In this document: piece after piece, positions 7,596 to 21,159 of the stretch
Layout of the letters: the number at the start of each line of letters is the position of its first letter
Numbering within the stretch: position 1 is the stretch's first letter
Assembly: GCA_016802835.1 (NCBI GenBank)
Contig: JAEVHO010000012.1
Span: 1 to 33,160 of the forward strand
Length of the DNA stretch: 33,160 nucleotides
Source of the DNA: Micromonospora sp. ATA32
GTDB taxonomy: Bacteria > Actinomycetota > Actinomycetes > Mycobacteriales > Micromonosporaceae
Reading direction: 5' to 3'
Program-made: the position numbers and the translations under genes
The notes under the pieces: model-generated
Database searches by the model: none
What the model saw: the letters and a program-made list of their open reading frames with translations, nothing else
Told to the model about the DNA's origin: nothing

Positions 7596-8541
7596 CGACC
7601 CTGACCGACCGCTACCTCGCCGCGACCCTGCGGTCGGTGCCGGCCCCGCGCCGCGAGGAGATCGCCACCGAGCTACGCGCCTCCATCGAGGACATGATCG
7701 AGGGCCGCTCGGCCGGCGGGCAGGACACCGCCACCGCCGAGCGGGAGGTGCTCACCGAACTGGGCAACCCGGCGCAGCTCGCCGCCCGCTACGCCGACCG
7801 CCGGTTGCAGCTCATCGGCCCGACCTACTACCTGGCCTGGGAACGACTGCTGAAGCTGCTGCTCTCCTTCGTACCGGCCGTGGTCGGCGTCCTGGTCGGC
7901 CTGGTGGAGGCGACCGACGGGAAGAACCCGGGCGGCGCGGTCGGCGCCGGCATCGCCGCAGCCCTCCAGGTGGTGGTCCAGATCGCCTTCTGGGTCACGC
8001 TGGTCTTCGCGATGATCGAGCGGACCAACACCGCGCTGAACCTGCCGGAGTGGACCGTCGACCAACTCCCCGACGTCCGGGCCGACCGCCAGATCACCCT
8101 GACCGACACCGCCGCCGCGATCGGCTGGCTCGTGCTGGTCATCGCGTACCTGCCGCTGCAACACTTCCACTCGTTCGTCCCCGCCTCCGACGGCGCAACC
8201 TGCCGATCCTCGACCCGGCGCTGTGGAGCTTCTGGCTGCCGTTCCTGATCGCCGTGCTGGTCGCCACCGTCGGCCTGGAGATCGCCAAGTACCGGGCCGG
8301 GCGCTGGACCTGGCCGCTGGTTGCGGTGAACGCGGTGCTGGACCTGGCGTTCGCGGTGCCGGTGGTCTGGCTGCTGCTGACCGACCGGCTGCTCAACCCC
8401 GAGTTCGTGGCGCGCTTCGACTGGCTCGGGCGGGGCGACAACCTGAACAGCGTCGCGGCCTTGGTGGTGGTCGGCACGATCCTCGTCGTGCTCTGGGACA
8501 TCGTCGACAGCGTGGTCAAGGCGTACCGCAACCGGCACTGA
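7592..8541 (+). CDS. PadR-associated HAAS-domain membrane protein, interrupted by one frameshift
   Basis: Starts with ATG overlapping the padR stop. The first ~85 residues form a soluble helical HAAS/permease-prefix domain (RYLAATLRSVPAPRREEIATELRASIEDMIEG, then AEREVLTELGNPAQLAARYADR). About five to six hydrophobic segments follow. The frame breaks near 8,192-8,196: the first part reads ...FHSFVPASDG and the second NLPILDPALWSFWLPFL to the stop at 8541. One missing G restores a continuous protein of about 316 aa. Function is unknown. Co-transcription with padR suggests it is the regulated target or the signal transducer of that repressor. Confidence 0.8.
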
Positions 8542-8560
8542 TCCGCAGCGACCGTCGCGT

Positions 8561-8584
8561 CCCGGCACTCACGGGGGTGCCGGG
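8561..8584 (+). terminator. GC-rich stem-loop after the padR operon
   Basis: 8-bp stem CCCGGCAC / GTGCCGGG with an 8-nt loop, 20 bp after the operon stop. It has no T tract, as is common for actinobacterial terminators. It also lies just past the DUF397 fragment on the other strand and may serve both. Confidence 0.5.
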
Positions 8585-8606
8585 CCGCGGCACGTCCGCC
8601 TCGGGG

Positions 8607-8790
8607 TTACCGGTCGCCGCCGGGCCGCAGAGCGCCGGCGGCCGCGGCGAGGAAGCCGGTCCAGGCCGCGGGGCCGAAGGCCAGCACCGGCCCCCTACGA
8701 TCCTTGCTGTCGCGCACGCCGACCACGCCGGGCAGATTCGTCGCCACCTCGACGCAGGTCGCCCCACCGTTGTCGCTCCGGGTGGACGTT
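8607..8790 (-). pseudogene. DUF397 protein, 5'-truncated
   Basis: The minus-strand frame ending TAA at 8607 reads STRSDNGGATCVEVATN, then GVVGVRDSKD and GPVLAFGPAAWTGFLAAAAGAL. This is the typical DUF397 signature of small proteins that accompany XRE regulators in Streptomyces and Micromonospora. The start codon and first residues are missing. Upstream the sequence passes directly into a different gene (DUF5753) in another frame, so a deletion fused the two. It is probably non-functional. Confidence 0.7.
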
Positions 8791-9127
8791 GAAGGCTATC
8801 AACGTCATCCGGTCGGTCGGTGACGTGCGCCCGCAGCGGGGTGTCCAGGTGCGCAACCTCGCCGCCCTCCGGGCTCCTGCCGAGGATGAAGGCGCCGGCC
8901 AGCCCGGCGTGCATCCCCGCGTCGGCCGGCACCACCTGCAGGTGGACGTGCGTCGACTCGGTGAGCCGGAGCAGGTGCGCGAGCTGGCCGACCATCACCT
9001 CCGGGCCGCCGATGCGCCGGCGCAGCACCGCCTCGTCGACCACGGCCACGAACTCCGGCGGCGTGTCCCGGCTGAGCACCGCCTGCCGGGCCAGCCGGGA
9101 GGTGACCCGCGTCGTCCGCCGGTCCAC
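8791..9127 (-). pseudogene. XRE-family regulator, DUF5753 part only
   Basis: Reads VTSRLARQAVLSRDTPPEFVAVVDEAVL, then GGPEVMVGQLAHLLRL, STHVHLQVVPADAGMHAGLAGAF and AHLDTPLRAHVTDRPDDVDSLQR. This is the DUF5753 domain found C-terminal to a helix-turn-helix in actinobacterial XRE regulators. The N-terminal DNA-binding domain (about 100+ residues) is missing: the expected position is occupied by a plus-strand gene. The last ~35 residues are also gone, cut at the junction with DUF397. The locus is therefore decayed at both ends, although typical partners are still adjacent. Confidence 0.75.
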
Positions 9128-9145
9128 TGGCCGGCGTCGGTCGGG

Positions 9146-9309
9146 ATGAGGCCGGTGTCCATCGCGGACCTACGCCGGCACGTCGCCGCGTGGCGGTGCC
9201 GGGTCTGCGCGGCGCCTTGGCCGTGCCCCCAGCGAAGCTGGGCCTGCGGATCGAGTACGCCGACGACCCGGTCGTCGGCTGGAACCGCCCGTGGCGACCG
9301 TCGCGCTGA
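9146..9309 (+). CDS. Small Cys-rich protein of XRE/DUF397 loci, interrupted by one frameshift
   Basis: From ATG 9146 the frame reads ADLRRHVAAWRCRVCAAPWPC. After the run of five C at 9226-9230 the sequence continues in another frame as PAKLGLRIEYADDP to a stop at 9309. Together this resembles a small actinobacterial family with a W-x-C-x2-C-x3-PWPC metal-binding-like motif followed by an A+L-LxxEY helix, often found next to XRE/DUF397 genes and loosely annotated as flavin reductase. Function is unknown. One lost C in the homopolymer explains the break. Recognition of the family is from memory of its motif. Confidence 0.5.
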
Positions 9310-9915: not shown

Positions 9916-10530
9916 TCAGCGCACGGGTACGGTGTCCCAGCCGGTCGGCAGCGTCGGCACCGGCCAGGCCGGGTCCGGACGCCAGGACGACCACTCCTGG
10001 TCCCACCAGAGCCGGCCGGCGTCGAGCAGGCCGGCGAGCCGATCGCCCTCGGCGCGGATCGCGTCCGCCATGCCCGGGTAGCGGCCCTCGGTGAGGCGCT
10101 GCGCGAACATCTCGACGTCCTTCCAGACGTACCGGTCCGCGTCCGCCGCCCACCACAGGTCCAACTCGTGGTCTAGCGTGTCGACCCCGATCGAGGTACG
10201 CCGCAGCGGGTCCTGGAGGTTGAAGTACCAACCCGCGAAAGCGCGCTCCGGGCCGGTCCAGAAGACGTCCACCGAGTGCGCCTCGCCGGGCCGGTGCAGC
10301 ATCAGCTTGCCGTGCCCGCTCCAACGCTCGTGCCCGGCCGTCTCCCACGGGTGCCGCCCGCACGGGAACCGGCCCCCGTCGGGGAAGCCGAACTCCGCGC
10401 CGGTGGGCAGGTAGAGGGCAAGCAGGTCCGGCGAGTCCTCGACACAGATCGTCGGACAGCCGAACCAGACCTCGCCGCGCAGCACCTCACGCCGGACGAC
10501 CACGTCGCCCGGCGCGAACCGCCGTCGCAT
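9916..10530 (-). CDS. DUF402 domain protein
   Basis: A 204-aa protein beginning MRRRFAPGDVVVRREVL. The DUF402 core follows as RRTSIGVDTLDHELDLWWAAD and YVWKDVEMFAQRLTEGRYP with conserved Asp/Glu residues. Members of this fold include nucleoside phosphatases and Mg-dependent phosphohydrolases; the exact activity here is not known. The start is 10 bp from the stop of the stranded yebC tail, so before insertion of the mobile element yebC and this gene were almost certainly an operon. It is now fed by whatever transcription leaves the element's left end. Confidence 0.85.
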   Translation of the reverse strand: MRRRFAPGDVVVRREVLRGEVWFGCPTICVEDSPDLLALYLPTGAEFGFPDGGRFPCGRHPWETAGHERWSGHGKLMLHRPGEAHSVDVFWTGPERAFAGWYFNLQDPLRRTSIGVDTLDHELDLWWAADADRYVWKDVEMFAQRLTEGRYPGMADAIRAEGDRLAGLLDAGRLWWDQEWSSWRPDPAWPVPTLPTGWDTVPVR

Positions 10531-10540
10531 CACGACCGGA

Positions 10541-10606
10541 TCAGGCGTCGACCGCGGCCATGACGTCGTCGGAGACGTCGTGCGACACGGTTTCACAACC
10601 GGACAT
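10541..10606 (-). pseudogene. Hybrid 21-codon ORF: element-encoded start joined to the displaced yebC 3' end
   Basis: ATG at 10606 with a strong GGAGG upstream (on the minus strand, about 10,613-10,617) opens a short frame whose last residues are VSDDVMAAVDA and whose stop is at 10,541. These residues match the usual YebC C-terminal consensus (compare D-x-SDEV-x-A-x-D). They are exactly the tail missing from the yebC copy at the far side of the element. The first ~10 codons belong to the element, the remainder to the host. In the intact chromosome the sequence would have read ...NFDVSDDVMAAVDA-stop, then DUF402. The peptide itself is probably just a by-product, although its ribosome binding site may aid translation of DUF402. 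Confidence 0.8.
10575..10580. repeat. Left attachment-site core
   Basis: ACGTCG, the short identity shared with the right junction. On the minus strand, sequence to the 3' side is host (rest of the original yebC tail) and to the 5' side is element. Serine integrases need only a very short common core, so a 6-bp match is expected. Confidence 0.75.
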
Positions 10607-10628
10607 GAGGTGCCTCCAAGAGATGAAC

Positions 10629-10657
10629 GGCCCGGCGGCGCTGGAACGCCCCGGGCC
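10629..10657. promoter_or_regulatory. Stem-loop at the element's left end
   Basis: GGCCCGG, a bulged C and GGCG pair with CGCC and CCGGGCC across a 6-nt loop (11 bp in total). It lies between the att site and the first rightward gene, just before that gene's GGGAGGGA ribosome binding site. It could shield the operon from transcription coming from the att side or modulate translation. There is no T tract. Confidence 0.4.
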
Positions 10658-10678
10658 CGGCCGGGAGGGAACCCCGAC

Positions 10679-10855
10679 ATGACCAACCTTACGCCCGCTG
10701 CCGCGCTCGCGGTGAAGGCCCTTGAGCCGTTCCGTCCCCGTAACCGCGCTGAGGCGCGGGCCGTGCTCACCGGGTGGGCCCGCCGGGACACCTTGACCCC
10801 CGCCGACGTTGCCGCCGTGCTGGCGACCTTCCGGGCCCGTGGCGGTGCCCGATGA
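10679..10855 (+). CDS. Small hypothetical protein, first gene of the element's rightward operon
   Basis: 58-aa Ala/Arg-rich protein from ATG 10679, preceded by GGGAGGGA at a good distance. Its stop overlaps the next start (ATGA), so it is translationally coupled to the wHTH gene. It is predicted mostly helical (PRNRAEARAVLTGWARRDTLTPADVAAVLATFRAR). No family was recognised. Similar short proteins often precede replication or regulatory genes in actinobacterial integrative elements. Confidence 0.7.
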   Translation: MTNLTPAAALAVKALEPFRPRNRAEARAVLTGWARRDTLTPADVAAVLATFRARGGAR

Positions 10856-11460
10856 GCCAGGCCGTCAAAGCTGCGATGCGCGCCACCCATGACCTCAAGC
10901 CCACTGAGCGGATGGTTGTTCTGGTGATCGCTGCTCACCAGAACCAGGAAGGCGACGCCTGGCCGTCCGTTCAGACCATCGCGGATCACGTCGGGTGCTC
11001 CACCCGCACCGTGCAGCGGGCCCTCGCCAAGCTGGTTCAGCTTGGCCGCCTGGTCGTCCGCCAGGTCGCCAACGTCGCCACCCGGGTTTACCGGCTGGTG
11101 ACCGGACAGCCGAACCGAGAGGGAGAGAGCACCCTCTCTCCCGGGTCGGCCCCTGTCGGGGGTGACAGTGAGCGCCAGGGGGTGACGGAATCGGCCCCCG
11201 GGGGTGACACCCGTAGCGTGTCGCCCGAAGTTGAGAAGACCAAAGAGAAGAACTACCGCGCTCCCGCGCGAGACTGGCGTCGATTCATCCCCAAGAGCAA
11301 AAACCCCACCCCCCCGCAGCGACAGCCGTACGGGTACCCGGAGCGGCGTGGGGCCGCTCTGCCGGTAGCTGACAGGGCGGAGCAGTGCCCCAGCCATCGG
11401 GGTAGCCCTCGGGGCAACTGTGGCCCGTGCCGCTCTGAGGCTCTGGCGGGTGGCCGATGA
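10852..11460 (+). CDS. Winged-helix protein with a Cys/His tail
   Basis: 202-aa protein from ATG 10852 (overlapping the previous stop). The N-terminal ~80 residues form an HTH_36-type winged helix: TERMVVLVIAAHQNQEGDAWPSVQTIADHVGCSTRTVQRALAKLVQLGRLVV. Such domains occur in replication initiators and regulators of plasmids, AICEs and phages. The middle is low-complexity and likely disordered. The C-terminus carries C-x2-H-x7-C-x2-C (CPSHRGSPRGNCGPC), a probable zinc-binding knuckle. It is co-translated with its neighbours (ATGA at both ends). It could be a replication initiator or operon regulator; the sequence alone does not decide. Confidence 0.8.
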   Translation: MSQAVKAAMRATHDLKPTERMVVLVIAAHQNQEGDAWPSVQTIADHVGCSTRTVQRALAKLVQLGRLVVRQVANVATRVYRLVTGQPNREGESTLSPGSAPVGGDSERQGVTESAPGGDTRSVSPEVEKTKEKNYRAPARDWRRFIPKSKNPTPPQRQPYGYPERRGAALPVADRAEQCPSHRGSPRGNCGPCRSEALAGGR

Positions 11461-12104
11461 ACGCCCGTAGGTTCGCCAGCCTCGCCGGAACCGTTGCCGT
11501 CACTGTGATTGCCGCTGTCGGAAGTTACGGCCACCAGCGGGAGCTAGCCCTGATGGCTGGTCAAACCCCTTTGCTGGCAACGCTTTTGCCGCTGTCCGTT
11601 GACGGGATGCTGTTGGTTGCCACCCTGGCGCTAGGCGACGGTAGGCGGTCCCGGTGGTCCGCCTGGTTGGCCTTCCTGGTCGGCGTAGCCGCTTCCCTGG
11701 CTGCCAACGTCATCGTTGCCGACCCCCACCCGGTGGCCCGGGTAGTGTCCGCCTGGCCCGCCGTGGCGTTGCTGCTGACGGTTGAGGTACTGGCCCGTTC
11801 CGGGAAGGGCCACCAGGCGGCCGTCGTTCTTCCGGCGGAAGTAGCGGGAACCGTTGTGGCGCAACGGGAAACGGCCCCGGAGGAATCGACGCCTGACGAA
11901 TCCGCGGTGACCCCCACGGACGGCCCCGGCGGGCCCGTACCCCCGGAAGGTGGGAAGGCCCGGAAGGTTCGCCGCCCGGTGGAGGAAACCAGGAAGCTAG
12001 CTGCCGCCATGCTGGCGGATGGCATCACCACGCGGGAGCAGGTTGCCGCCACCCTCGGGGTAACGCCCCGGAGGCTCCGCCAGGTGCTCAACGCTGCCGG
12101 GTAG
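11457..12104 (+). CDS. DUF2637 membrane protein
   Basis: 215-aa protein starting inside the previous stop (ATGA). Four hydrophobic segments are visible (about residues 5-25, 35-58, 66-88, 92-110), including LLPLSVDGMLLVATLALGDG, the core of the DUF2637 family found on actinobacterial plasmids, AICEs and phages (related to Spd spread proteins). The Pro/Glu-rich linker is followed by a C-terminal helix-turn-helix-like segment (GITTREQVAATLGVTPRRLRQVL). Family members are linked to plasmid spread or replication, but the mechanism is not established. Confidence 0.85.
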   Translation: MNARRFASLAGTVAVTVIAAVGSYGHQRELALMAGQTPLLATLLPLSVDGMLLVATLALGDGRRSRWSAWLAFLVGVAASLAANVIVADPHPVARVVSAWPAVALLLTVEVLARSGKGHQAAVVLPAEVAGTVVAQRETAPEESTPDESAVTPTDGPGGPVPPEGGKARKVRRPVEETRKLAAAMLADGITTREQVAATLGVTPRRLRQVLNAAG

Positions 12105-12121
12105 GTGTACCGTGCCCGCCC

Positions 12122-12232
12122 ATGGGTGCTCTCAAGCCGTGGCACATTGCCGTGCTGTGTTGCGTCGTGTCGTCAGCCGTGCTCATCGGCGGCTTGGTCT
12201 GGCTCTTGGTCAAGAGGGCTAGCCGCCGGTAG
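12122..12232 (+). CDS. Tiny single-pass membrane protein
   Basis: 36-aa frame from ATG 12122: a short polar N-terminus (MGALKPWHI), one strongly hydrophobic helix (AVLCCVVSSAVLIGGLVWLL) and a basic C-terminus (VKRASRR). It follows DUF2637 by 17 bp. The ribosome binding site is weak (AGGTG about 12 nt upstream). The layout and charge asymmetry look like a real small membrane protein. A holin-like or accessory role is possible but not shown. Confidence 0.55.
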   Translation: MGALKPWHIAVLCCVVSSAVLIGGLVWLLVKRASRR

Positions 12233-12272
12233 CGCGGGACGATTCGCCGCGTAGGAAGGATTCACGCCCACT

Positions 12273-12455
12273 GTGAGAGTCGTACAGGATTCCGCCAACG
12301 TCTTTGTCACGTACGTTGATCCCCCGGTTACCCCCGTCCGCCTGGCGGAGCTGGTCGCCCAGCTCCCCCCGGAGGCTGTCTGCACTGAGGTTGTGCTCCA
12401 CCCTGACGGAATCTTGTTCGCCACGTTTGAAACCGCCCCTGACGCTGCCGCGTAG
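12273..12455 (+). CDS. Small hypothetical protein, last gene of the rightward operon
   Basis: 60-aa protein from GTG 12273 with AGGAAGGA upstream. It is predicted to be a compact alpha/beta fold (VFVTYVDPPVTPVRLAELVAQLPPEAVCTEVVLHPDGILFATFE). No family was recognised. It ends just before a clear terminator and faces the leftward capsid/HNH group. Confidence 0.6.
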   Translation: MRVVQDSANVFVTYVDPPVTPVRLAELVAQLPPEAVCTEVVLHPDGILFATFETAPDAAA

Positions 12456-12466
12456 GCGGCCCTGAG

Positions 12467-12507
12467 GGGCTGGGGTAGGTAAAGAGATACCGCCCCGGCC
12501 CTTTCTC
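12467..12507 (+). terminator. Terminator between convergent groups
   Basis: Long stem: GGGCTGGGG pairs with CCCCGGCCC (one G-U pair in the plus-strand RNA), extended by GGTA/TACC around an AAGAG-type loop, followed by TTTCTC. It ends the rightward operon. Confidence 0.7.
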
Positions 12508-12513
12508 GCCGCC

Positions 12514-12777
12514 TCACTTTGCCTCCCCGTTGTCGACAGCCTTGACCGCCTGGTGTACGGCGGCAACGCATCGACCGTTACCGCACGTCGGCATTCCGAA
12601 CCAAAACCCGTGAGGGCGCGGGTTGCCGTAAAGCACCTCCCGCGCGTTAGCCGTGTTGCCGTCCCGGTGCTCGTACTCGCACCGCAGGTTGTCCGACAGG
12701 TAGGAGCCAAGCCAGATGCGGCACTCAGTGCCCCGGACCGAATAGATACGCTTGCTGATGTATGCCGGAACCATCAT
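12514..12777 (-). CDS. Hypothetical 87-aa Cys-containing protein
   Basis: Starts ATG 12777, sharing one base with the stop of the HNH gene (TAATG), so translation is coupled. It contains Cys/His residues in two groups (RGTECRIWLG...LRCEYEHRDGNTANAREVL and GFWFGMPTCGNGRCVAAVHQAV). This could be metal binding, but no known family was recognised. It is co-expressed with the HNH nuclease and may be its partner. Confidence 0.65.
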   Translation of the reverse strand: MMVPAYISKRIYSVRGTECRIWLGSYLSDNLRCEYEHRDGNTANAREVLYGNPRPHGFWFGMPTCGNGRCVAAVHQAVKAVDNGEAK

Positions 12778-13136
12778 TACTTGACCCCCTCAATCCCGTT
12801 ACGGATGCTCAGCTCAGACAGCCGGCGGTATAGCCCCCAACGCTTGTTGGCGGCGCGGCTGGTGTTCTCCGCCAGCGTCACCAATTCGAGGTGAAGCGGG
12901 TTCCAACAGTTTTTGTTGGCGCACTGGTGGTCCGCGCTCAATCCCTCAATGTCGTAACCGTGGGCCCGCATGCTTTCCCGGTGGGCGTAACAGGTCCGCT
13001 TACGCGGGTGGTAAATGGTGAACTGGCCGTACCCGTCACGGTTAACGAAGTCATCCCACAACCAGCAGCCGCCCTCGGATTGCGGCTGAATCCAGCTACG
13101 GGAAGTCAGGTAATGAATCATTTCATGGTCAAGCAT
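12777..13136 (-). CDS. HNH endonuclease
   Basis: 119-aa nuclease from ATG 13136 with AAAGGGG upstream. HNH_3-type motifs: GGCWLWDDFVNRDGYGQF, YAHRESMRAHG, then LSADHQCANKNCWNPLHLELVT, where the His, Cys and Asn residues form the beta-beta-alpha metal site. Free-standing HNH proteins next to phage head genes can assist terminase-dependent DNA packaging (known for HK97 gp74-like proteins) or act as homing nucleases. It lies downstream of the capsid gene, but an intrinsic terminator separates the two, so it may be expressed independently. Confidence 0.88.
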   Translation of the reverse strand: MLDHEMIHYLTSRSWIQPQSEGGCWLWDDFVNRDGYGQFTIYHPRKRTCYAHRESMRAHGYDIEGLSADHQCANKNCWNPLHLELVTLAENTSRAANKRWGLYRRLSELSIRNGIEGVK

Positions 13137-13171
13137 TGTTTAACCCCTTTCGGTTATGCACTAAGGTATTT

Positions 13172-13209
13172 GGGGAAAAAGAGAAACGGCAGGGGTTAAC
13201 CCCCTGCCG
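13172..13209 (-). terminator. Intrinsic terminator of the capsid gene
   Basis: On the minus strand, a 9-bp stem (CGGCAGGGG with CCCCTGCCG, 5-nt loop) is followed by a pyrimidine run TTTCTCTTTTTCCCC. It lies between the capsid stop (13353) and the HNH start (13136). A second GC-rich stem-loop sits at about 13,306-13,330, just after the capsid stop, and lacks a T tract. Confidence 0.8.
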
Positions 13210-13352
13210 GCCCCCATTGCTCCCCCGAGCTATCCCCAACCACGGCCCACCAAAGACCGACAAAGCACCACGGGCCCGCTATGAAAACCCGTGATGCCAT
13301 GACGGCCCCGGGACCCCAAAGGGGCCCCGGAATCCGTTGTCAATTAGCTAGA

Positions 13353-14462
13353 TCAGGAGTGAGTCACCCAAGTACCAGCGCCAGCCTCCGCAACGTGGAC
13401 GCCAGCGGCGCGCACGATCGACCGCAGACCAACCTGGTCAGTCTCGAAATACACGTCCTCGGAAACCTTCACCTCAACGTCCTTGCGGATACCGCAGTAG
13501 ACGCGGTTGGTGTTGAGAAGCAGGGCAGTCTTAACAGGGATGCCCGCAACCGGGACAATCGGCGGAAGGTCACCGATCGGGCCCCGGGCCGCCAGGCTGT
13601 AGCCGCCAGCGCCAGACCCCAGCTTCTCAGTGAGAATCGACTTGTAAACGGTCTGGCTGACGTAGATAACCGTGGCGGGGCTGTTAGCCGCCACCCGGTC
13701 CGCCTGAGCGTTCAGCAGGTCGTCAAGGGTGATGGTGGTACCCGCCAGGGTGGTCGGCTTATTCACCAGGCCAGCCCGGAAGATACCGAAAATGTCACCA
13801 GCGGCAGCGTTCACGCCAAAGAACTTGGCATCCAGCGCCAGCCCGGTAGAGCGGCGCATGTTGTCGCTGATGATCTGCCGCAGGTTCAGCGCGCTATCGT
13901 CCAGGACTTCCGAAGACGCCTTAACGATCTGCGCAACCTTGACCGCCTTAAGCGTGAGCGACGACCAATCGCTGTCGCCCTGGCCGATAATGGCAGCCTC
14001 GGCCACGGTCCCCGGCAGGGAGAAAGTGTCCAGCTTCGGAAGCTGAAGGTCCCCACCGTCCCACCGGATGACATTCCCGGCCGGCAGGTACTTGAGGAAC
14101 TGCGATTCCGCGACCAACAGGTCGATGTAGCTAGCGGCAGTCTTGTTCTGAACGGTGACGCCACCGTCAGCGGCCGAACCAACGGAGAGGGCCGCCCGGT
14201 ACTCAGAACGGGTCGGAACAATGGTCCGCCACTCACCCCGGTTGCTAGAGCGGCTGCCGCCAGCGGCCAGCAGGGCGGCCCGCCCGGTCAGCTCCCGGTT
14301 CTCAGCCTCACGCTCAGCCGCCCGGATGTGGCCGTCAGCCTCAACGGCCAGGGCGTCAATGTCAGCGTTCAGCTCAGCGGCACGCTCCGGGTTGGCCCGC
14401 AGCTCAGCGAACTTGGCGGCCCGCTTTTCAATGGCAGCGTTAGCCAGTGCGATGTAATCCAT
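13353..14462 (-). CDS. HK97-fold phage major capsid protein
   Basis: 369-aa protein from ATG 14462 with GGAG 8 nt upstream. The N-terminal ~66 residues are highly charged and helical (EKRAAKFAELRANPERAAEL...), the usual delta/scaffold domain. The HK97 fold follows: EYRAALSVG, ASYIDLLVAESQFLKYLPAGNVIRWDGG, then the P-domain and E-loop region with QGDSDWSSLTLKAVKVAQIVKASSEVLDDS, FFG...GIFRAG, and the A-domain with TVIYVSQTVYKSI, IPVKTALLLNTNRVYCGIRKDVEVKVSEDVYFETDQVGLRSIVRAAGVH. It is full-length for the family and intact. It is the only virion gene in the element: no portal, protease, terminase or tail gene accompanies it. It has its own flanking terminators on both sides, implying a dedicated promoter in the ~90 bp upstream. 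Confidence 0.95.
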   Translation of the reverse strand: MDYIALANAAIEKRAAKFAELRANPERAAELNADIDALAVEADGHIRAAEREAENRELTGRAALLAAGGSRSSNRGEWRTIVPTRSEYRAALSVGSAADGGVTVQNKTAASYIDLLVAESQFLKYLPAGNVIRWDGGDLQLPKLDTFSLPGTVAEAAIIGQGDSDWSSLTLKAVKVAQIVKASSEVLDDSALNLRQIISDNMRRSTGLALDAKFFGVNAAAGDIFGIFRAGLVNKPTTLAGTTITLDDLLNAQADRVAANSPATVIYVSQTVYKSILTEKLGSGAGGYSLAARGPIGDLPPIVPVAGIPVKTALLLNTNRVYCGIRKDVEVKVSEDVYFETDQVGLRSIVRAAGVHVAEAGAGTWVTHS

Positions 14463-14552
14463 AGGTGGAACTCCGTATCTGTTGGATAGCTAGCCCCGGT
14501 CGCTGGTGCGCCAGGGCGTGGGGGAATGCACTCGCGCCCGGAAACGGGCACG

Positions 14553-14581
14553 AAAAAAGGGCCAGCCGGAATGGCTGACCC
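14553..14581 (-). terminator. Intrinsic terminator upstream of the capsid gene
   Basis: On the minus strand, GGGTCAGCC pairs with GGCTGGCCC (one G-U wobble; the plus-strand version would have a C-A mismatch), then TTTTTT. This favours leftward transcription. It marks the 3' end of the leftward transcript that contains the zinc-finger gene and the stem-loop-rich region. Confidence 0.85.
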
Positions 14582-14585
14582 TGGC

Positions 14586-15002
14586 TCCGTCGTTAGCGGA
14601 GAAGTTGAGGCCCCGTGTGGCCGCGTACGGGGCTAGACGCTTTCAGAGGTACCCGGGCCGTGGATTAGACGCGCCCGGCTTCCTGGCCGGTGGGAACCGT
14701 CTAGTGACCAGCTAGCCGTCATTCCCGTTGCTGAGATTCTGTCCGCATGCTCTCAGCCGGCATGCTCGCCGGTTACCAACCGGCTTGCCATGTTTGCTCG
14801 GACACGACATGGCGCGTGTCTCGCTGGTGACCAAACCAGCTTTGCGACGTTGTGACCCAAGGGTCACTAGCGCGGGATCGAGTGATCCCTGTTCGACCCA
14901 AACACCGTTAAGGGTCTGACCGTTACCGCCCAATTTCTTAGGCGAGTCAGAACGGCCTTAAGCCGTTGTTTGGAATCTCCCCGGCGATTGCCGGGAAGCC
15001 TG
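14586..15002 (-). ncRNA. Candidate structured RNA or structured 3' UTR (about 420 nt)
   Basis: No convincing coding frame is present on either strand. At least ten perfect stems of 5-7 bp occur in succession. Examples (arms): 14610-14616/14627-14633, 14731-14736/14751-14756, 14768-14774/14778-14784, 14787-14793/14807-14813, 14823-14828/14835-14840, 14852-14858/14861-14867, 14874-14879/14884-14889, 14951-14956/14962-14967, 14980-14985/14990-14995. Long-range pairs also exist: CTAGTGACC (14701-14709) with GGTCACTAG (14862-14870), and CTAGACG (14633-14639) with CGTCTAG (14698-14704). Two hairpin loops are complementary (TGTCCG at 14740-14745, CGGACA at 14799-14804). The run ends at a terminator with six T on the minus strand. 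It does not fold as a tRNA. An origin or packaging site made of DNA hairpins is the main alternative. Confidence 0.55.
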
Positions 15003-15215
15003 TTAGGCAGCCTCGCTGCCATAGTGCTGAGTACGAAATGCCCAACGCTCAGCGCCGTATCGGGCGGCAGACTGGCGGGCCCGCACTCTTGCGGCCCGTA
15101 CCCGTCGCGCCTCACGGCGGCAATTATCGGAGCAGAATCTAGGAAGCCGGCCGGTGTCCGCCCGGCGGACAACAGGGCCGGAGCAAACGAAGCACGGCCG
15201 TTCGCTGTCGCTCAT
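15003..15215 (-). CDS. Small FCS-type zinc-finger protein
   Basis: 70-aa protein from ATG 15215 with GGTAGGTGAT upstream. It has C-x2-C (CFVC) and RFCSDNCRREARRVRAARVRAR: a treble-clef/FCS-like zinc finger followed by a strongly basic helix, so nucleic-acid binding is likely. Such proteins are common on actinobacterial phages and plasmids, with no known specific role. It is the only gene on the leftward transcript that ends in the structured region, so it may bind or regulate that RNA (speculation). It is divergent from the 82-aa gene across a repeat-rich region. Confidence 0.7.
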   Translation of the reverse strand: MSDSERPCFVCSGPVVRRADTGRLPRFCSDNCRREARRVRAARVRARQSAARYGAERWAFRTQHYGSEAA

Positions 15216-15579
15216 GTCGGATCACCTACCCTCTTTAATTGTGGCGCTCTATTGGGCATAACCCACACACTCCGCGTCATTTGCAGGCGCAAAAGTCCGC
15301 ATAAGGACATGGGTCTGGGGAAGCTGAGGCTCAGAGTTTCGACCTCCCCCTACCCCCTCGCGGGGTCGGGACTGCATACCTAGTGCATAACCAGGGTCGC
15401 CGCGGTGCATAAGGCGCCGCATAGTATGCGGGGGAGTGTCCCTGCCACTGCATACCACTACCAACAACGGCAGCAACAGATATGCGCGTGCCCGTCTGTC
15501 TGTTGCGATACGCAACGGCAGGCAGCACGCAACCGGGTAGCCATAGCCCGCCCTAGATGGGCAGGCATAACCTCAGGGG
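15216..15579. promoter_or_regulatory. Divergent non-coding region with a GCATA repeat cluster
   Basis: A 364-bp gap between divergent genes. The core GCATA followed by A or C recurs at 15255-15263, 15297-15306, 15373-15380, 15383-15392, 15405-15414, 15449-15456 and 15564-15572. There is also a perfect palindrome CCGCATA-g-TATGCGG at 15417-15431. A separate inverted repeat GTTGCG-ata-CGCAAC is at 15502-15516. The spacing is uneven. It could be operators for a repressor controlling both directions, or an iteron-type origin. Confidence 0.6.
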
Positions 15580-15828
15580 ATGCACGAACTAACCACGGGT
15601 GATCTCGCGTACTGGCTAGATGCTGAGCGCCAGGCCGTGCGCGTACGGGTGGAGCTGGTCACCCCATACCGTCTCTATCTCAAGGCCACCACGGATGACT
15701 ACGGGGTGCCTAAGGGCACCGTGTGGTTTGAGTCCCGATACTCACGACGGGTAGCCCCGCGTGAAGCGGTCTACCTCCACGGGGGTAAGGGTCACTTCAA
15801 CCCCGCCGCCGTCGCGGTAGTGGAGTAG
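15580..15828 (+). CDS. Hypothetical 82-aa protein
   Basis: Frame from ATG 15580: TGDLAYWLDAERQAVRVRVELVTPYRLYLKATTDDYGVPKGTVWFESRYSRRVAPREAVYLHGGKG. It is predicted mostly beta. No family was recognised. The purine-rich AGGGG abuts the ATG with no spacer and TAACCT lies about 10 bp upstream, so the mRNA may be leaderless. It is the only rightward gene in the central part of the element and is divergent from the zinc-finger gene. Confidence 0.65.
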   Translation: MHELTTGDLAYWLDAERQAVRVRVELVTPYRLYLKATTDDYGVPKGTVWFESRYSRRVAPREAVYLHGGKGHFNPAAVAVVE

Positions 15829-16154
15829 CCCTAGAGGGCCGTAGAGCCCTCACCCCTAGCTGACTACTGCCGGGGCCCGTTAGGGGCCCTCGGTTGATTA
15901 CAGGGCCGTTAGGCGGCCCGTTGTGTCAGTGCCGTTGTGGTTGTTGTTGGGGAAGGTCTTAGCCGTTGGCTCGGTTGATCCTCGCCACGGCAAACAGTTA
16001 AGGGGCCCCCCGGAAGGGGCCCCTAGTTAGTTGGTGGGTTTCGCTAGGGCTTCACCCGCCACGGAAAATCTCAGCACAGGCGAACCGGCCCGGCAGGGGC
16101 CGGCCCTCAGCGGTTAAGTGGGTAAAGGGGGGAGCGTTGCGACCCCTATAAGGG
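15829..16154. repeat. Stem-loop-rich intergenic stretch
   Basis: Non-coding between convergent genes. Stems: GAGGGC/GCCCTC (15834-15851); GGGCCC/GGGCCC (15873-15889); GGGCCG/CGGCCC (15903-15919); and the strongest, AGGGGCCCC/GGGGCCCCT (16001-16024, loop CCGGAA). The second and third share the loop motif GTTAGG. The last is a good bidirectional terminator candidate for the 82-aa gene and the ATPase gene. Confidence 0.55.
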
Positions 16155-16186
16155 GTAACACCGTAACGGCGTAACACTGCAACACC
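16155..16186. repeat. Four tandem 8-bp repeats (GTAACNNY-like)
   Basis: GTAACACC, GTAACGGC, GTAACACT and GCAACACC follow one another without gaps and touch the stop codon of the AAA ATPase gene. An 8-bp period with a constant GYAAC core looks like short iterons. Upstream lies CCCC-tataa-GGGG (about 16,143-16,155). Confidence 0.5.
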
Positions 16187-17166
16187 TACCCGGCTAGCGG
16201 GCCCGCCAGGGCCCACACGGAACCCTCACGGTTGAGCAGCGTTCCGTACTTACGTCCGCCGCTCAGGTTGACCGTGTGCGTACCCTCCGCGCCGCCAAAC
16301 TTGCCGGCAATCTCCCGGGCAGTCTCCCGGACACCCTTCCCCTGACAGTTGCTCACAACCCAACGGGCAACCTCAGCGTTCCGGTCGAGCGTTGCCGTAT
16401 CCCTGGTGCGCTTCCGCGCCGCACTGTCGGCGGCAATCTCCGCCTCAGCTTTCACGCTCTCAACGGCAAAGAAATCCCCCGAGGTAGCTCGGGGATCAAA
16501 CGTCAGGGTCAAGCTAGCGTCAGCCTGTCGGTTGCCCTCGGCGGTCAACACACGCTTACCGGACTGCTTCCGCTTCTCAAGATAGATAACGGAACGGGTC
16601 CACGCCTCAAAAGCGCGGGACCCCATCGGGGAGCGGGTAGCGAACTGTCCCGGCTTAGCCGTGTGATGGCAGGCAATCACCGAAATTCCGTTGCGGGAAA
16701 TCATGGTGAGTCCGTCAAGGAAAGCCACCACGTCACGCTGACTGTTGATATCGCCCGCGATAGCGCCTAGCAGGTTGTCGAGAATGAAGACGTTAGCGCC
16801 GGCATCCTGCAACCCCGCCAATACGCCCGCCCAATACTCCGGAGTGTTGTTCCGCTCGATTAGCCCGAGGTTGTACGCGCAATGGTCAACGCCGAGCGTG
16901 TCGAAACGGTCTAGCGTCTCTTCTTCCCCGTCAGGGTCAGTCAGACCGAACACAACCCGTTTGGGTCCCCCGGTCACCCGGTGGCCCAACCATTCCCCGT
17001 CGCCACGGATAAGAGCAGCCGCGAGGGAAGACGTTAGGTGAGACTTGCCAGCCTCAGGGGCACCCGCAATCATGGTCACCCGGCCGTGAATCAAGCCCTC
17101 AACAAGAAACGTGGTGCCGCGAATCAACGTAGCCTGCCTCTCCTTGCCGGTAGGAAACAGATTCAC
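16186..17166 (-). CDS. RepA-like AAA ATPase (RecA-fold helicase-type)
   Basis: 326-aa protein. GTG 17166 was chosen: it overlaps the upstream stop (GTGA) and has GGAGG 8 nt before it. Walker A is GAPEAGKSHL (about residues 35-44), Walker B is NVFILDNLLG, and a sensor-like segment ISVIACHHTAKPGQ resembles hexameric RepA/DnaB-type ATPases (AAA_25). The C-terminal part looks like a winged helix (GVRETAREIAGKFGG...). In plasmids and phage satellites such proteins unwind the origin for element replication, so autonomous replication after excision is inferred. It is co-translated with the endonuclease VII-like gene and ends at tandem 8-bp repeats. Confidence 0.87.
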   Translation of the reverse strand: MNLFPTGKERQATLIRGTTFLVEGLIHGRVTMIAGAPEAGKSHLTSSLAAALIRGDGEWLGHRVTGGPKRVVFGLTDPDGEEETLDRFDTLGVDHCAYNLGLIERNNTPEYWAGVLAGLQDAGANVFILDNLLGAIAGDINSQRDVVAFLDGLTMISRNGISVIACHHTAKPGQFATRSPMGSRAFEAWTRSVIYLEKRKQSGKRVLTAEGNRQADASLTLTFDPRATSGDFFAVESVKAEAEIAADSAARKRTRDTATLDRNAEVARWVVSNCQGKGVRETAREIAGKFGGAEGTHTVNLSGGRKYGTLLNREGSVWALAGPLAG

Positions 17167-17669
17167 GCGGCAACCTCCGCCATCAAGGCGGACCAATTGA
17201 CGTAGGGGTGCCCCGCCAGGGCGTCAGCCATGTTGCAAGGGGCACAGAGCAGGCCCCGAACACAATTGCCGCAGCCGCCACGGGTCACGCCGCCGTGGGC
17301 CGGGGGGCAGCAATCATGGTCATGGTCAACATGGAAGCGGTTTCCGGTGGGGCACTCATCGGCTCCACATCCGGCGCATCGTCCACCCTGATAGACGTAG
17401 AGGGATTCCCATTGCTCAACAGTAATTCCGTATCTCTCCCGGAGGTTTTTGGACCGCTCCCGCTCCGGGGGCATGTTTTCGGCGCGCCACCTCCGACCGT
17501 TCCTCCGTGCACGCTCGGGGTTGACTGCACGCCAGCGGCGGTGGTTCTCCCGTGCGCAAAGCTTGCACCAGGAGTTCAAACCATCCCGGTTGCCCCGTGC
17601 CTTGTGAAACTCCGCCACCGGCTTAACCTCGCCGCACTTGTGGCAGGTTTTCTCAGCTAATAACTCCAT
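17163..17669 (-). CDS. Endonuclease VII-type HNH protein
   Basis: 168-aa protein from ATG 17669 with AGGAGG 8 nt upstream. N-terminal C-x2-C ... C-x2-C zinc region (KTCHKCGEVKPVAEFHKAR...NSWCKLCARENHRRW), then LRERYGITVEQWESLYVYQGGRCAGCG and the nuclease core FHVDHDHDCC...CVRGLLCAPCNMADAL. The D-H-D-H and RGLLC-x2-CN motifs are those of phage recombination endonuclease VII (Holliday-junction resolvase) relatives. It heads an operon with the ATPase, so roles in element replication or recombination are likely. The insertion of extra Cys residues between DHDH and RGLLC is somewhat longer than usual. Confidence 0.9.
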   Translation of the reverse strand: MELLAEKTCHKCGEVKPVAEFHKARGNRDGLNSWCKLCARENHRRWRAVNPERARRNGRRWRAENMPPERERSKNLRERYGITVEQWESLYVYQGGRCAGCGADECPTGNRFHVDHDHDCCPPAHGGVTRGGCGNCVRGLLCAPCNMADALAGHPYVNWSALMAEVAA

Positions 17670-17859
17670 ACGGAAACCTCCTGATTTTGGGCGCGGTTCA
17701 ACCCCGCGTGTAAACGGTTTGATTACTCAAAGATTGGTGGCGGCCCTCAACCGGGGCCGCTGGTTCATTCTGCCGGAAGTTGTCACACCCTCCAGGCTGG
17801 TGCTGGTTCGCCCGGTGCAGAGATCGTCCCACCTAGTGCAACAGCCGTACGTGGGCAGC
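17670..17859. promoter_or_regulatory. Upstream region of the endonuclease VII/ATPase operon
   Basis: Non-coding gap between the integrase terminator and the leftward operon. A more A/T-rich patch (about 17,705-17,740) is the likely promoter area, and AGGAGG lies next to the ATG. No convincing -35/-10 pair or repeat was identified. Confidence 0.35.
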
Positions 17860-17904
17860 AAAAAGCCCCGGCCGGGCACCCTTACCGGGACACCTAGCCG
17901 GGGC
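17860..17904 (-). terminator. Intrinsic terminator of the integrase gene
   Basis: On the minus strand GCCCCGGC pairs with GCCGGGGC across a 24-nt loop, followed by TTTTT. It lies 23 bp after the integrase stop. Confidence 0.8.
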
Positions 17905-17926
17905 CGCTGTCGCCTCTACGTGGCTG

Positions 17927-19489
17927 TCAGGCCGTTCTAGCGGCGCGCGCTAGCACCCGTTGCTCTAGGTCCTCGGGAATCTCGAACGTCTCCCGGGTGT
18001 GCGACGGCTGGCCGGCGGCCCAATCGGAGAACATCTCAACGTAGGTCGGTTGAGGCTTGGCGTGGACGTTCACCCGGAAGCCGGACGCCAACAGGAACGC
18101 CCGCCGTTCCTCCACCGTCGCCAGGGCGTCCCACGTCTCACGGAAGGTCCGCCCCGTGGGCACCATGTCCCAACGGTCCGGGACGTTGGGCAACCCCTCC
18201 AACGCTTCCCGCTTGTCCTCAAGGCTTCCGTACATGGCGCGAAACTCAGCGGCCCCACGTTCACCCCGAAACAAACCCGCCTGACGGTCGTCCCGTAGCT
18301 CCGCCAACGCTTCCTCTACGCGGGCAAGCTCCGCCGTGTGATCCTCGCCCGGGACTAGCCGGCGCTCCAACACCTCAAGGTCACCAACAAGCGCCAGGAA
18401 ATGCCCGACGGCGGCAGCCTCCAACTCCTCAGCCCTGGCCGCTTTCGCCGCACACTCCAACCCCTGTTTAGTGCGGGCGGAGCAACGGTAATATTTGTAT
18501 TCCTGGTTCCGCTGAGGCTTGAACATCCAGTGATAGTGAAGCGGCGAACCATCCTCGGCACAGAACGCTAGACCGCTCAGCATGGCCGCCGGGGCGGCCC
18601 GGTACTTGGGTTTACGCTTCCCGTCAAGGGCGTGCTGTAAAGCCTTCCAATCCGCCTCCGGGATCAACGGTTCCGCCCGCTGGACGGGTAGGCCACCGTC
18701 ACCCCGGATTACCCGGCCCTCATGCTCAAGTTGGCCCAGCAGGGCCCGGGAAACCAGCATCCGGCGCAACGTCGTATCGGTCCACGCTTGAGGCTTCCGG
18801 GGCGTCCCGTCTTTGTGAACCCGGGTTTTCCCGTCACGGGCCGCCGCATGATCCCGGGGCGAGAGAACGCCCCGGGCGTTCAGGTCACGGGCAATACTGG
18901 CGGTGCTCTTACCGTCGATCACGTCAGCCACAACGGCCCGGAGAATCGGCAGCGCCTCCGGATCGTGCGCCAGCGTCCAACCCTTGCCGCCAGCGTTCTT
19001 AACGGGCCGATACCCGTAGGCGACGCTGCCGCCGTGCCAACGGCCCTCCCGCCGGGCGTGCCGCCGGGAATCGGCAGACCTGGCCGCGATCGTCTTACGC
19101 TCGAACTCAGCGAAGATCGCTAGAACTTTGGCGACCAGCTCCCCGGTATCCGTGGACGTGTCCACGGCATCCATGTAAGCGGCAACGTACTTGCCATGCT
19201 CCCGGGCCCAGTCGATCAGTTGCACAAAGTGCAGCAGGGAACGGGAAATGCGGTCGATCTTCATTCCCGCCACAACATCGAACGGGGCCGGTGGCGTGTC
19301 ACCCAGCCACCGACCCAGCTCCGGCCGTTCCCATGGGGGCACAGCCCCGGACACGTCCAAATCCTCAGCCCAGCCAACGATGGTGTGCCCGTGGGCCGTA
19401 GCCCACGCGGTCAACCCCTGCCGCTGCCGCTCCGGCGACGTGGTTTCGTCTGTCTCCCGGCTAAGCCGGATCACCCCGAGTACGCGCAC
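17927..19489 (-). CDS. Large serine integrase
   Basis: 520-aa site-specific recombinase from GTG 19489. The catalytic domain begins VLGVIRLSRETDETTSPERQRQ (nucleophile Ser10), with DVSGAVPPWERPELGRWL, MKIDRISRSLLHF and LAIFAEFERKTIAARS, as in phage serine integrases. The recombinase domain includes GGSVAYGYRPV and ATPE-like helices. A zinc-ribbon region follows, with FCAED, YYRCSARTKQGLEC. The first C-x2-C pair has Asp in place of the second Cys, an oddity. A coiled-coil region (ELARVEEALAELRDD) precedes the C-terminus. It starts only 10 bp after the chimeric yebC stop and has no good ribosome binding site of its own, so it is probably translated by coupling to the gene upstream. Confidence 0.96.
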   Translation of the reverse strand: MRVLGVIRLSRETDETTSPERQRQGLTAWATAHGHTIVGWAEDLDVSGAVPPWERPELGRWLGDTPPAPFDVVAGMKIDRISRSLLHFVQLIDWAREHGKYVAAYMDAVDTSTDTGELVAKVLAIFAEFERKTIAARSADSRRHARREGRWHGGSVAYGYRPVKNAGGKGWTLAHDPEALPILRAVVADVIDGKSTASIARDLNARGVLSPRDHAAARDGKTRVHKDGTPRKPQAWTDTTLRRMLVSRALLGQLEHEGRVIRGDGGLPVQRAEPLIPEADWKALQHALDGKRKPKYRAAPAAMLSGLAFCAEDGSPLHYHWMFKPQRNQEYKYYRCSARTKQGLECAAKAARAEELEAAAVGHFLALVGDLEVLERRLVPGEDHTAELARVEEALAELRDDRQAGLFRGERGAAEFRAMYGSLEDKREALEGLPNVPDRWDMVPTGRTFRETWDALATVEERRAFLLASGFRVNVHAKPQPTYVEMFSDWAAGQPSHTRETFEIPEDLEQRVLARAARTA

Positions 19490-19499
19490 CCGGGGGAGG

Positions 19500-20252
19500 C
19501 TACACCTCGATTTGTGCTAGCGTCTCATCCGGCACGTCGAAGTTCGCGTAGACGTTCTGCACGTCGTCGCAGTCCTCCAGCACGTCGATCAGCTTGAAGA
19601 TCTTGCGCGCGCCGTCCTCGTCCAGCGGCACGTTCATGCTGGGGATCAGCGAGGACTCGGCCGACTCGTACTCGATGCCGGCGTCCTGCAGGGCGGTGCG
19701 GACCGCGATCAGGTCGGTCGGCTCCGAGACCACCTCGTACGCCTCACCGAGGTCGTTGACCTCCTCCGCGCCGGCCTCGAGGACGGCCATCAGCACGTCG
19801 TCCTCGCTCATCCCGGCCTTGGGGACGATCACCACGCCCTTGCGGGAGAACATGTACGACACCGAGCCGGCGTCGGCGAGCGAGCCGCCGTTGCGGGTCA
19901 GCGCGGTGCGCACCTCGGTGGCGGCGCGGTTGCGGTTGTCGGTGAGACACTCGATGAGCATCGCCACGCCGTTCGGGCCGTAGCCCTCGTACATGATGGT
20001 CTGCCAGTCGGCGCCGCCGGCCTCCAGGCCGGAGCCGCGCTTGACCGCGCGGTCGATGTTGTCGTTGGGGACCGAGTTCTTCTTCGCCTTCTGGATGGCG
20101 TCGTACAGCGTCGGGTTACCGGACGGGTCGCCGCCGCCGGTCCGGGCCGCGACCTCGACGTTCTTGATCAGCTTGGCGAACATCTTGCCGCGCTTGGCGT
20201 CGATGACGGCCTTCTTGTGCTTGGTCGTCGCCCACTTTGAGTGGCCGGACAT
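19500..20252 (-). CDS. yebC: YebC/PmpR family protein, C-terminus replaced by the mobile element
   Basis: 250-aa protein of normal length starting [37 protein letters not shown], the family's hallmark N-terminus. It continues with [18 protein letters not shown] and the C-terminal [16 protein letters not shown]. YebC proteins act as translation or transcription factors; recent work on the family ties them to ribosome stalling at proline stretches. The last ~10 residues ([10 protein letters not shown]) are encoded by the inserted element: the presumed native tail (SDDVMAAVDA) is found at 10,541-10,575 on the far side. The replacement keeps length and chemistry, so the protein should remain functional. 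Confidence 0.97.
19534..19539. repeat. Right attachment-site core
   Basis: ACGTCG within the codons for FDV of yebC, matching 10575-10580. Sequence to the right is host yebC; to the left is the element-encoded tail and integrase. Confidence 0.75.
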
Positions 20253-20553
20253 CTTGTACCTCCGTCTGCCGTCTGCTGATCACGTCTGCGTCGACTGCCC
20301 GCGCCAGGTCCACCACGCGGCCGGCGTACGGGCGGCCGGTCGGCTCCGGGTGGAAGGCCGCGGCGGGTGAGGGCCCCTGCCGAACCGCGGCAATCCTATC
20401 GAGGTCGTACCCGGGCATGTCACACCCGGCACCCGCGCGGGGCGGCGCCGGGGCACCCGGGCCACGGAAAAGACAACCACCGCGGGCCGGAAAACATGCC
20501 CCCGGGCATGCGGGAGGGCCCCTCCGGTCCGGAAGGGGCCCCTCACGCATCGC
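20253..20553. terminator. pdxT-yebC intergenic region with stem-loops
   Basis: A 301-bp non-coding gap. The near-perfect GC stem at about 20,514-20,544 (GAGGGGCCCC-type arms) lies directly after the pdxT stop and is the likely terminator, without a T tract. An adjacent inverted repeat CATGCCC-cc-GGGCATG is at 20,495-20,510. The rest presumably contains the yebC promoter; no clear -35/-10 pair was found. Confidence 0.5.
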
Positions 20554-21159
20554 TCAGGCGGCGCGGACCAGCTCCACGAAGTAGCGGTGCACCCGCAGGT
20601 CACCGGTCAGCTCCGGGTGGAACGAGGTGGCCAGCAGGTTGCCCTGCCGGACCGCCACGATCCGTCCGGCGGCCGGGCCGTCGGTCACCGTGCCGAGCAC
20701 CTCGACGTCGGCGCCGACCCGCTCGACCCATGGCGCCCGGATGAACACCGCGTGGAACGGCTCGCCCGCGACGCCGGTGATCTCCACCGGGGCCTCGAAC
20801 GAGTCGACCTGCCGGCCGAACGCGTTGCGCCGGACGGTCATCTCGATGCCGTCGAAGCCGCGCTGGTCGGGGCGACCGTCGAGGACCTCGGTGGCCAGCA
20901 TGATCATGCCGGCGCAGGAGCCGTAGACCGGCATGCCCGCGGCGATCCGCTTGTCGATCGGCTCACGCAGCTCGAAGATGTCGGCCAGCTTGCTGATCGT
21001 GGTGGACTCACCGCCGGGGATGACCAGCCCGTCGACCGCCTCCAGCTCCTCCCGGCGGCGGACCGGGCGGGCGTCCGCGCCCGCCCCGGCCAGGGCCGCG
21101 ACGTGCTCGCGTACGTCCCCCTGCAGGGCGAGCACACCGATCACCGGTGCGTCGCTCAT
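20554..21159 (-). CDS. pdxT: Pyridoxal 5'-phosphate synthase glutaminase subunit
   Basis: 201-aa class-I glutamine amidotransferase of the DXP-independent vitamin B6 pathway. It releases ammonia from glutamine and passes it to PdxS. ATG 21159 was chosen ([19 protein letters not shown], with AGAGGA about 9 nt upstream) over the longer in-frame start. Family motifs: [15 protein letters not shown], the nucleophile elbow YGSCAGMI (Cys) and ATSFHPELT (His and Glu of the triad). It is immediately downstream of pdxS. Confidence 0.97.

Follow-up and report, generated by a model that had tools for sequence, protein, structure and literature searches.

Phage satellites have been reported to suppress capsid production by their helpers, and a PLE small RNA has been tied to structural genes. 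Downregulation of the phage capsid by PLE satellites is described in part of PMC7567579, and excerpts of PMC12987554 present SviR, a small RNA of the V. cholerae PLE, as binding phage transcripts and lowering a phage capsid morphogenesis factor. CapR is listed in a table of PMC11288032 as a PLE-encoded ORF (ORF2). The cf-PICIs, according to a section of PMC10690885, encode the major capsid protein (MCP), protease, portal, connectors and terminase. Outside the satellites, passages of PMC8860590 describe the ToxI RNA of type III toxin-antitoxin systems as several H-type pseudoknots, after which a terminator and a gene follow. Here, we compare with these systems a structured spacer next to the capsid gene of a small actinobacterial element.

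The satellite-like element and related loci

The window, i.e. the whole stretch of DNA that was analysed, comprises 33,160 nt of Micromonospora sp. ATA32 (contig JAEVHO010000012.1, forward-strand positions 1-33,160). An integrated mobile element of about 8.96 kb occupies positions 10581-19539, and its boundaries can be read from a relative (G001) with an empty site (locus L118), in which 840-1506 aligns to 9934-10580 of the window and 1501-3068 to 19534-21141. Since this alignment runs directly from 10580 on to 19534, 10581-19539 is regarded as an insertion near the 3' end of yebC. The 6-bp direct repeat ACGTCG is found at both insertion ends (10575-10580 and 19534-19539). The yebC gene obtains a new C-terminus from the element, and its original end is located at the far side of the element.

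The genes of the element encode a serine integrase (17927-19489, minus strand; Pfam Resolvase, Recombinase and Zn_ribbon_recom), an endonuclease VII-like protein, an AAA ATPase, a 70-aa zinc-finger-like protein (zf; ORF at 15003-15215, minus strand), an HK97-fold MCP (13353-14462, minus strand; Pfam Phage_capsid 1.4e-25, TIGR01554 2e-35), an HNH protein and a replication-initiation-like protein. The zf protein has an Arg-rich tail and a CxxC..CxxxC motif, which was assigned by eye. No further genes for head, tail or packaging functions came to light among the element proteins searched against Pfam, PHROGs and NCBIfam. The element is therefore called satellite-like, as the MCP is the single structural gene recognised in about 9 kb; like phage satellites in general, it is small and integrated and lacks a complete set of virion genes, and it presumably uses a helper phage. 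PADLOC gave no toxin-antitoxin match among eight proteins of the element.

Between the zf gene and the MCP gene (mcp) lies a structured non-coding spacer (14553-15002, minus strand), a candidate RNA of about 430-450 nt. The closest MCPs are encoded in at least five other loci, L027 (G115), L028 (G016), L072 (G202), L073 (G208) and L084 (G446), found among 160 genomes of the genus, 354 of the family and 394 of the class, where part of the first-look candidates was scored per genome and relatives may thus be missed. Inspection by eye showed a 1230-aa tape-measure-like ORF beside mcp in L084, which may be a phage. The order zf, spacer, mcp is common to the window and L072. In L073 one extra gene is present between spacer and mcp; it resembles the genes before mcp in L086 and L089, and we take it to be a protease gene. 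In L027 (6608-7848) two genes stand between zf and the spacer, and by eye these are similar to the genes that immediately follow mcp in L029 and L030, two full phages; the gene order of L027 is permuted relative to these phages. Short matches from the first genus search within 15049-15229 were considered as zf homologues and discarded, as tblastn with the window proteins finds none in L004-L015.

Relatives of the window spacer were sought more widely. Searches of phage and plasmid DNA gave none or chance matches, scans of viral contigs gave no relative and scans of genome contigs none that was confirmed; in its own genome the spacer finds only itself. The L072 MCP had no tblastn match in phages and plasmids. 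Weak matches to the L072 and L073 spacers were obtained in 67 genomes of genus g4, and two of the 23 loci inspected were the elements themselves, the other 21 having no mcp-like frame by eye.

Structure, pseudoknots and terminator of the spacer

The minus strand of the spacer folds with a predicted energy of -204.8 kcal/mol (z -5.77) and the plus strand with z -4.30, and in both cases none of 100 shuffles is as good; a comparison stretch upstream of zf in the window has z -1.8. The structure thus exceeds chance, and the helices that an earlier note had named are present: a 9-bp long-range helix, whose 5' arm on the minus strand (14862-14870) is the perfect complement of the 3' arm (14701-14709), a 7-bp helix (14633-14639 with 14698-14704) and a 6-nt complementarity (14740-14745 with 14799-14804). 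The 9-bp and 7-bp helices are mutually exclusive, both using 14701-14704. The statement that nearly all of the sequence falls into perfect stems was too strong: perfect hairpins (arm of at least 6, loop of 3-12) cover 24.9% of 14553-15002, compared with 3.1% in dinucleotide shuffles, a cover that none of 1000 shuffles reaches. The first hairpin on the 5' side, H1 (14980-14995, minus strand), stands just past the zf stop, and comparison by eye places a hairpin close behind the preceding gene in L072, L073 and L027 also.

Hairpin cover is not a property of the spacer alone. The mean in the window is 7.9%, and the richest 450-nt stretch is 14745-15194 (30.2%). Three further stretches, which were picked as maxima, reach 22.2% (10914-11363), 21.8% (8463-8912) and 20.9% (15769-16218), which was attained by 0, 1 and 0 of 500 shuffles, respectively; at 15219-15579 the cover is ordinary (128 of 500 shuffles reach it). 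The first of these maxima is located in the region of the replication genes, and the last one covers the end of the AAA gene and extends past it. Among the related loci, the cover of the spacers in the window, L027, L072 and L073 is reached by 0, 2, 0 and 0 of 1000 shuffles. The region upstream of the L028 mcp (8773-9295) has 16.1% (0 of 500), the L073 spacer 16.3%, and the spacer behind the mcp of phage L029 15.1% (7 of 500) with a fold z of -3.15; at L084 (176 of 500) and L030 (46 of 500) the cover does not exceed that of shuffles. Fold z values are -3.2 for the L027 spacer, -4.2 for that of L072 (its two terminators included), -3.7 for that of L073 and -1.6 behind the L030 mcp. As the L028 upstream region and the L029 phage spacer are comparable, stem richness alone does not set the L072 and L073 spacers apart. 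The use of hairpin cover as a hallmark of the spacer is weakened by L028 and the three maxima, which likewise beat shuffles, and the reading that we prefer below, like its more general version, becomes slightly less likely, because such richness is not specific to the spacer.

The pseudoknots are more distinctive. Two features had escaped the earlier note, and the first one is that overlapping stems form H-type pseudoknots, one stem of which competes with the 6-nt loop match. A strict scan of the spacer finds two of them on the minus strand and none on the plus strand: PKa (14787-14820; S1 6 bp, L1 1 nt, S2 7 bp, L3 7 nt) and PKb (14730-14765; S1 6 bp, L1 2 nt, S2 7 bp, L3 8 nt). A weaker one, PKc (14610-14640, minus strand; S1 4 bp, S2 7 bp; pairing checked), is detected in the relaxed scan only and lies shortly before the terminator. 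Two pseudoknots with a score of at least 12.5 occur in none of 1000 shuffles of the spacer, and two at any accepted score in one of 1000. Because L1 and L3 are unequal, the geometry is directional, which favours a leftward RNA. The whole window contains two pseudoknots on the plus and five on the minus strand, and the strict scan of 276,522 bases of other loci gave 121, with seven clusters. Four of these clusters are one place of G115 seen in overlapping loci; the other three (L041, L045 and L046) are pairs scoring 11.0-13.0.

The spacer stretch of L027, at the equivalent place before mcp, has two strict pseudoknots on the plus strand and none on the opposite one. None of 1000 shuffles gives two, and therefore pseudoknots, unlike stem richness, set the L027 spacer apart. 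One of the two, PK1 (7885-7920), has the same lengths as PKb; all 13 pairs are kept, five of them with both sides changed, and the loop letters are partly conserved. The covariation comes from a single pair of 36-nt units, fewer than a significance test needs; both were picked for pairing, so that the 100% agreement arises partly by construction, and its measures are reached by 18 of 500 shuffles. The L072 spacer has one weak pseudoknot (reached by 26 of 1000 shuffles) and the L073 spacer none in the strict scan.

On the minus strand the spacer ends in an intrinsic terminator (14553-14582), a hairpin with one G-U pair followed by six T, as the earlier note had described; it was checked in the sequence, and similar ones are present in L027 and L072. 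It is the only terminator-like site in 14400-15600, where shuffles average 0.8, so a single site is not unusual. The terminator end and mcp leader (14471-14569, minus strand; 99 nt) are 89% identical to L027, yet the MCPs are about 40% identical, and this could reflect either strong constraint or recent exchange. In L072 two near-identical intrinsic terminators, both resembling that of the window, stand in tandem before mcp (8664-8690 and about 8736-8760). By eye, L073 has no terminator straight after the spacer, and in the full phages L029, L030 and L031, which lack a spacer of this kind, a terminator likewise closely precedes mcp. No sigma-70-like promoter was seen. The leftward structured RNA proposed in the earlier note is favoured by the pseudoknot geometry and by the pseudoknots and same terminator of L027; hairpin richness by itself is unspecific.

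The antisense capsid segment and its interpretation

The second feature that had been missed is a segment (14846-14935, minus strand; blastn and nhmmer) that runs antisense to the final ~90 nt of mcp genes of phages (a stretch that encodes ...DLFDLNSVKALTVTA and the stop). It is 80% identical to phage L029 (G020) in an alignment of 92 columns (E 1e-13 in 150 kb), where it is the reverse complement of the mcp end up to the stop codon; by blastn the spacer has no other match in L029 below E 0.3. A profile built on the 3' ends of phage mcp genes, in which the badly aligned L089 was included, detects the segment in antisense in the window (E 3.5e-14), L073 (5.9e-11) and L072 (4.1e-6) by nhmmer, and nothing in the spacers of L027, L028 and L084 (best E 0.34, in L084). 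A full-gene mcp profile, from which L089 was left out, was run on these six loci, with L032-L036 and L085-L088 outside the antisense test. It gives antisense matches at profile positions 1121-1208 in the window (E 5.5e-11), 1084-1208 in L073 (5.4e-9) and 1137-1193 in L072 (0.0017), and none in L027, L028 and L084; its background is a best reversed-sequence E of 0.21 and four matches outside mcp at E 0.015-0.84. All antisense matches fall within the spacers, in three of the six loci, and they correspond to the last 60-125 nt of mcp and to no other part.

In the sense direction the same profile matches the mcp genes of the loci themselves: the 5' end is matched in three of them (the window, L027 and L072), pieces from the middle of the gene are matched in L027, L028 and L072, and L028 has a further match at positions 1089-1153. 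The profile matches neither the mcp of L073 itself nor anything in L084. The mcp of the window element thus resembles phage mcp at the 5' end and not at the 3' end that the antisense segment matches. The mismatches between the segment and the L029 mcp are spread evenly over codon positions (3/4/4, 2/2/2 and 7/7/9) and are accompanied by frameshifts. A coding role of the segment is thereby ruled out, and a conserved protein frame through the spacer, which would have spoken against an RNA, is absent, the mcp-like frame being shifted. We also considered an overlapping DNA signal at the mcp 3' end of phages and rejected it, since the identity of synonymous codons is hardly higher over the final 31 columns (0.56) than elsewhere (0.54).

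Within the segment L072 and L073 have 26 of 29 nt in common, whereas in their mcp and zf genes a residue shared by both proteins is encoded by the identical codon in 43% of cases (41-47% in comparisons among the window, L072 and L073). The binomial chance of this agreement is 7.6e-6 at p 0.5 for a stretch picked as the best, and a recent exchange between the two may lie behind it. Perfect hairpins within the segment are built from letters that differ from the phage. Their positions are not the same in the window (14852-14867 and 14874-14889) and in L073 (7709-7723 and 7733-7750), and they interrupt the complementarity. Extended complementarity, as is expected of trans-acting antisense RNAs, is found in the match to the L029 mcp and in the duplexes predicted with four phage mcp ends: in each of the 12 pairs, none of 60 mononucleotide shuffles of the target gives a duplex as strong. 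Duplexes with the mcp ends of the elements themselves (-76, -61 and -89 kcal/mol, these ends being unshuffled) fall within the values obtained with shuffled phage targets. Such energies, computed for mcp ends, restate the homology and ignore the folding of each strand. A near-perfect phage target was not found, the L029 mcp being the best one.

We propose, with a probability of about 0.36, that the spacer specifies a structured satellite RNA that is terminated before mcp and pairs with the mcp mRNA of a helper phage, favouring the capsid of the element itself. A leftward RNA would start behind the zf message, or be processed from it, fold into hairpins and H-type pseudoknots and stop at the intrinsic terminator before mcp. 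Its 5' part would be a captured, no longer coding antisense copy of a phage-type mcp 3' end, which during helper infection would pair with the 3' end of the helper mcp mRNA and lower its translation or stability; the pseudoknots and hairpins might stabilise or present the RNA. The mcp of the element differs at its 3' end and would be spared, and particles would be biased towards the capsid of the element. Antisense targeting of the 3' coding end is less usual than that of the start site. Several observations speak against this proposal: neither a near-perfect target nor a promoter-like site was found, hairpins interrupt the complementarity, L027 has pseudoknots without the antisense segment, L028 and L084 have no antisense match, the full-gene match of L072 is weak, and L073 lacks a strict pseudoknot and, by eye, a terminator straight after its spacer. 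The more general version, in which a family of capsid-carrying actinobacterial satellites captured the helper mcp 3' end in antisense within a pseudoknot-rich RNA and silences the helper capsid mRNA, its own diverged mcp escaping, is more tentative, and we consider it rather doubtful. If it is true, it would amount to an RNA-guided capsid swap with built-in self-immunity.

The main rival is nearly as likely as this pairing with helper mRNA. An inverted fragment of a phage mcp could have been trapped in an ancestral spacer and be decaying there, and the hairpins and terminator would merely insulate the neighbouring genes. On the one hand, the even distribution of mismatches and the frameshifts are as expected without coding constraint, no near-perfect target was found and hairpin richness is not confined to the spacer. 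On the other hand, the same 60-125 nt, and no other antisense part of mcp, persist in three elements with heavily diverged genes, perfect hairpins are present in the segment, though not at the same positions in the window and L073, and the stems of the pseudoknot unit change on both sides. Even if it is a relic, the segment identifies a small family of elements that carry a capsid gene and have an antisense fragment in common.

It is less probable that the folded RNA acts in cis, as a leader that controls read-through into the element's own mcp by attenuation or antitermination. The position of the terminator directly before mcp would suit such a role, and so would the 99 nt of terminator end and leader kept between the window and L027 despite the divergence of the MCPs; however, the full phages L029, L030 and L031 share a terminator before mcp without the spacer, another gene instead of terminator and mcp follows the spacer of L073, and the antisense segment is left unexplained.

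A structural or packaging RNA that would bind a protein partner, such as the zf protein or the capsid, is regarded as improbable. The zf gene adjoins the spacer in the window, L072 and L073 and is located upstream in L027; the zf homologues (60% identity in L027, 51% in L072 and 38% in L073) have invariant Cys and Arg residues, and the loop letters of the pseudoknots are partly conserved between the window and L027. Against this, the zf protein matches no family of Pfam or NCBIfam and has a weak match in PHROGs, and zf-like proteins are seen by eye near the mcp of L028 and L084 without a recognised spacer. An element acting at the DNA level, e.g. an origin of replication or a site of recombination with many inverted repeats, is very improbable, for the inverted repeats on both strands and the plus-strand fold (z also -4.3) are countered by strict pseudoknots restricted to the minus strand, the terminator at the end and phage mcp 3' ends without extra synonymous conservation (0.56 vs 0.54).

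Comparison with known systems

If the pairing of a satellite RNA with helper mcp mRNA is true, an RNA derived from a capsid gene would be a simple and evolvable way to aim at a helper, it would hint at the way in which an element that has a single capsid gene can compete for assembly, and it would be an example of coding sequence becoming structured RNA.

The earlier note did not recognise the spacer as a known RNA, in agreement with Rfam, which has no match in the window at gathering score and nothing convincing at E up to 10. As long structured RNAs in or near phage-like elements, GOLLD, ROOL and OLE are similar in kind; the window spacer is shorter and has no such Rfam match, and none of the three is among the five (window) and nine (L027) matches at E up to 10. 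ARAGORN calls no tmRNA or tRNA-like gene in the window. Among the matches listed from the open-licence literature, titles and abstract openings contain no description of such an RNA.

The spacer resembles ToxI in the succession of pseudoknots, terminator and gene. It differs in that tandem near-identical repeats are absent and the pseudoknot units differ in stem sequence, and the gene downstream encodes an HK97 MCP and not a ToxN-type endoribonuclease. With the cf-PICIs the element shares its small size, integration and an MCP of its own, but the MCP alone, and not the full cf-PICI set, was found among the proteins searched. The outcome that we propose, downregulation of the phage capsid, is the same as for CapR of the PLE; CapR is an ORF, whereas here an RNA derived from the capsid gene is proposed. 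SviR, as a satellite RNA reported to lower a phage capsid morphogenesis factor, is similar in kind to the RNA proposed here. The candidate RNA, predicted from sequence, differs from SviR in its length of about 430 nt and in that the 3' end of phage mcp can be recognised in it as an antisense copy. What would be new in comparison with these systems is a satellite regulatory RNA apparently made from the very capsid gene that it would target.
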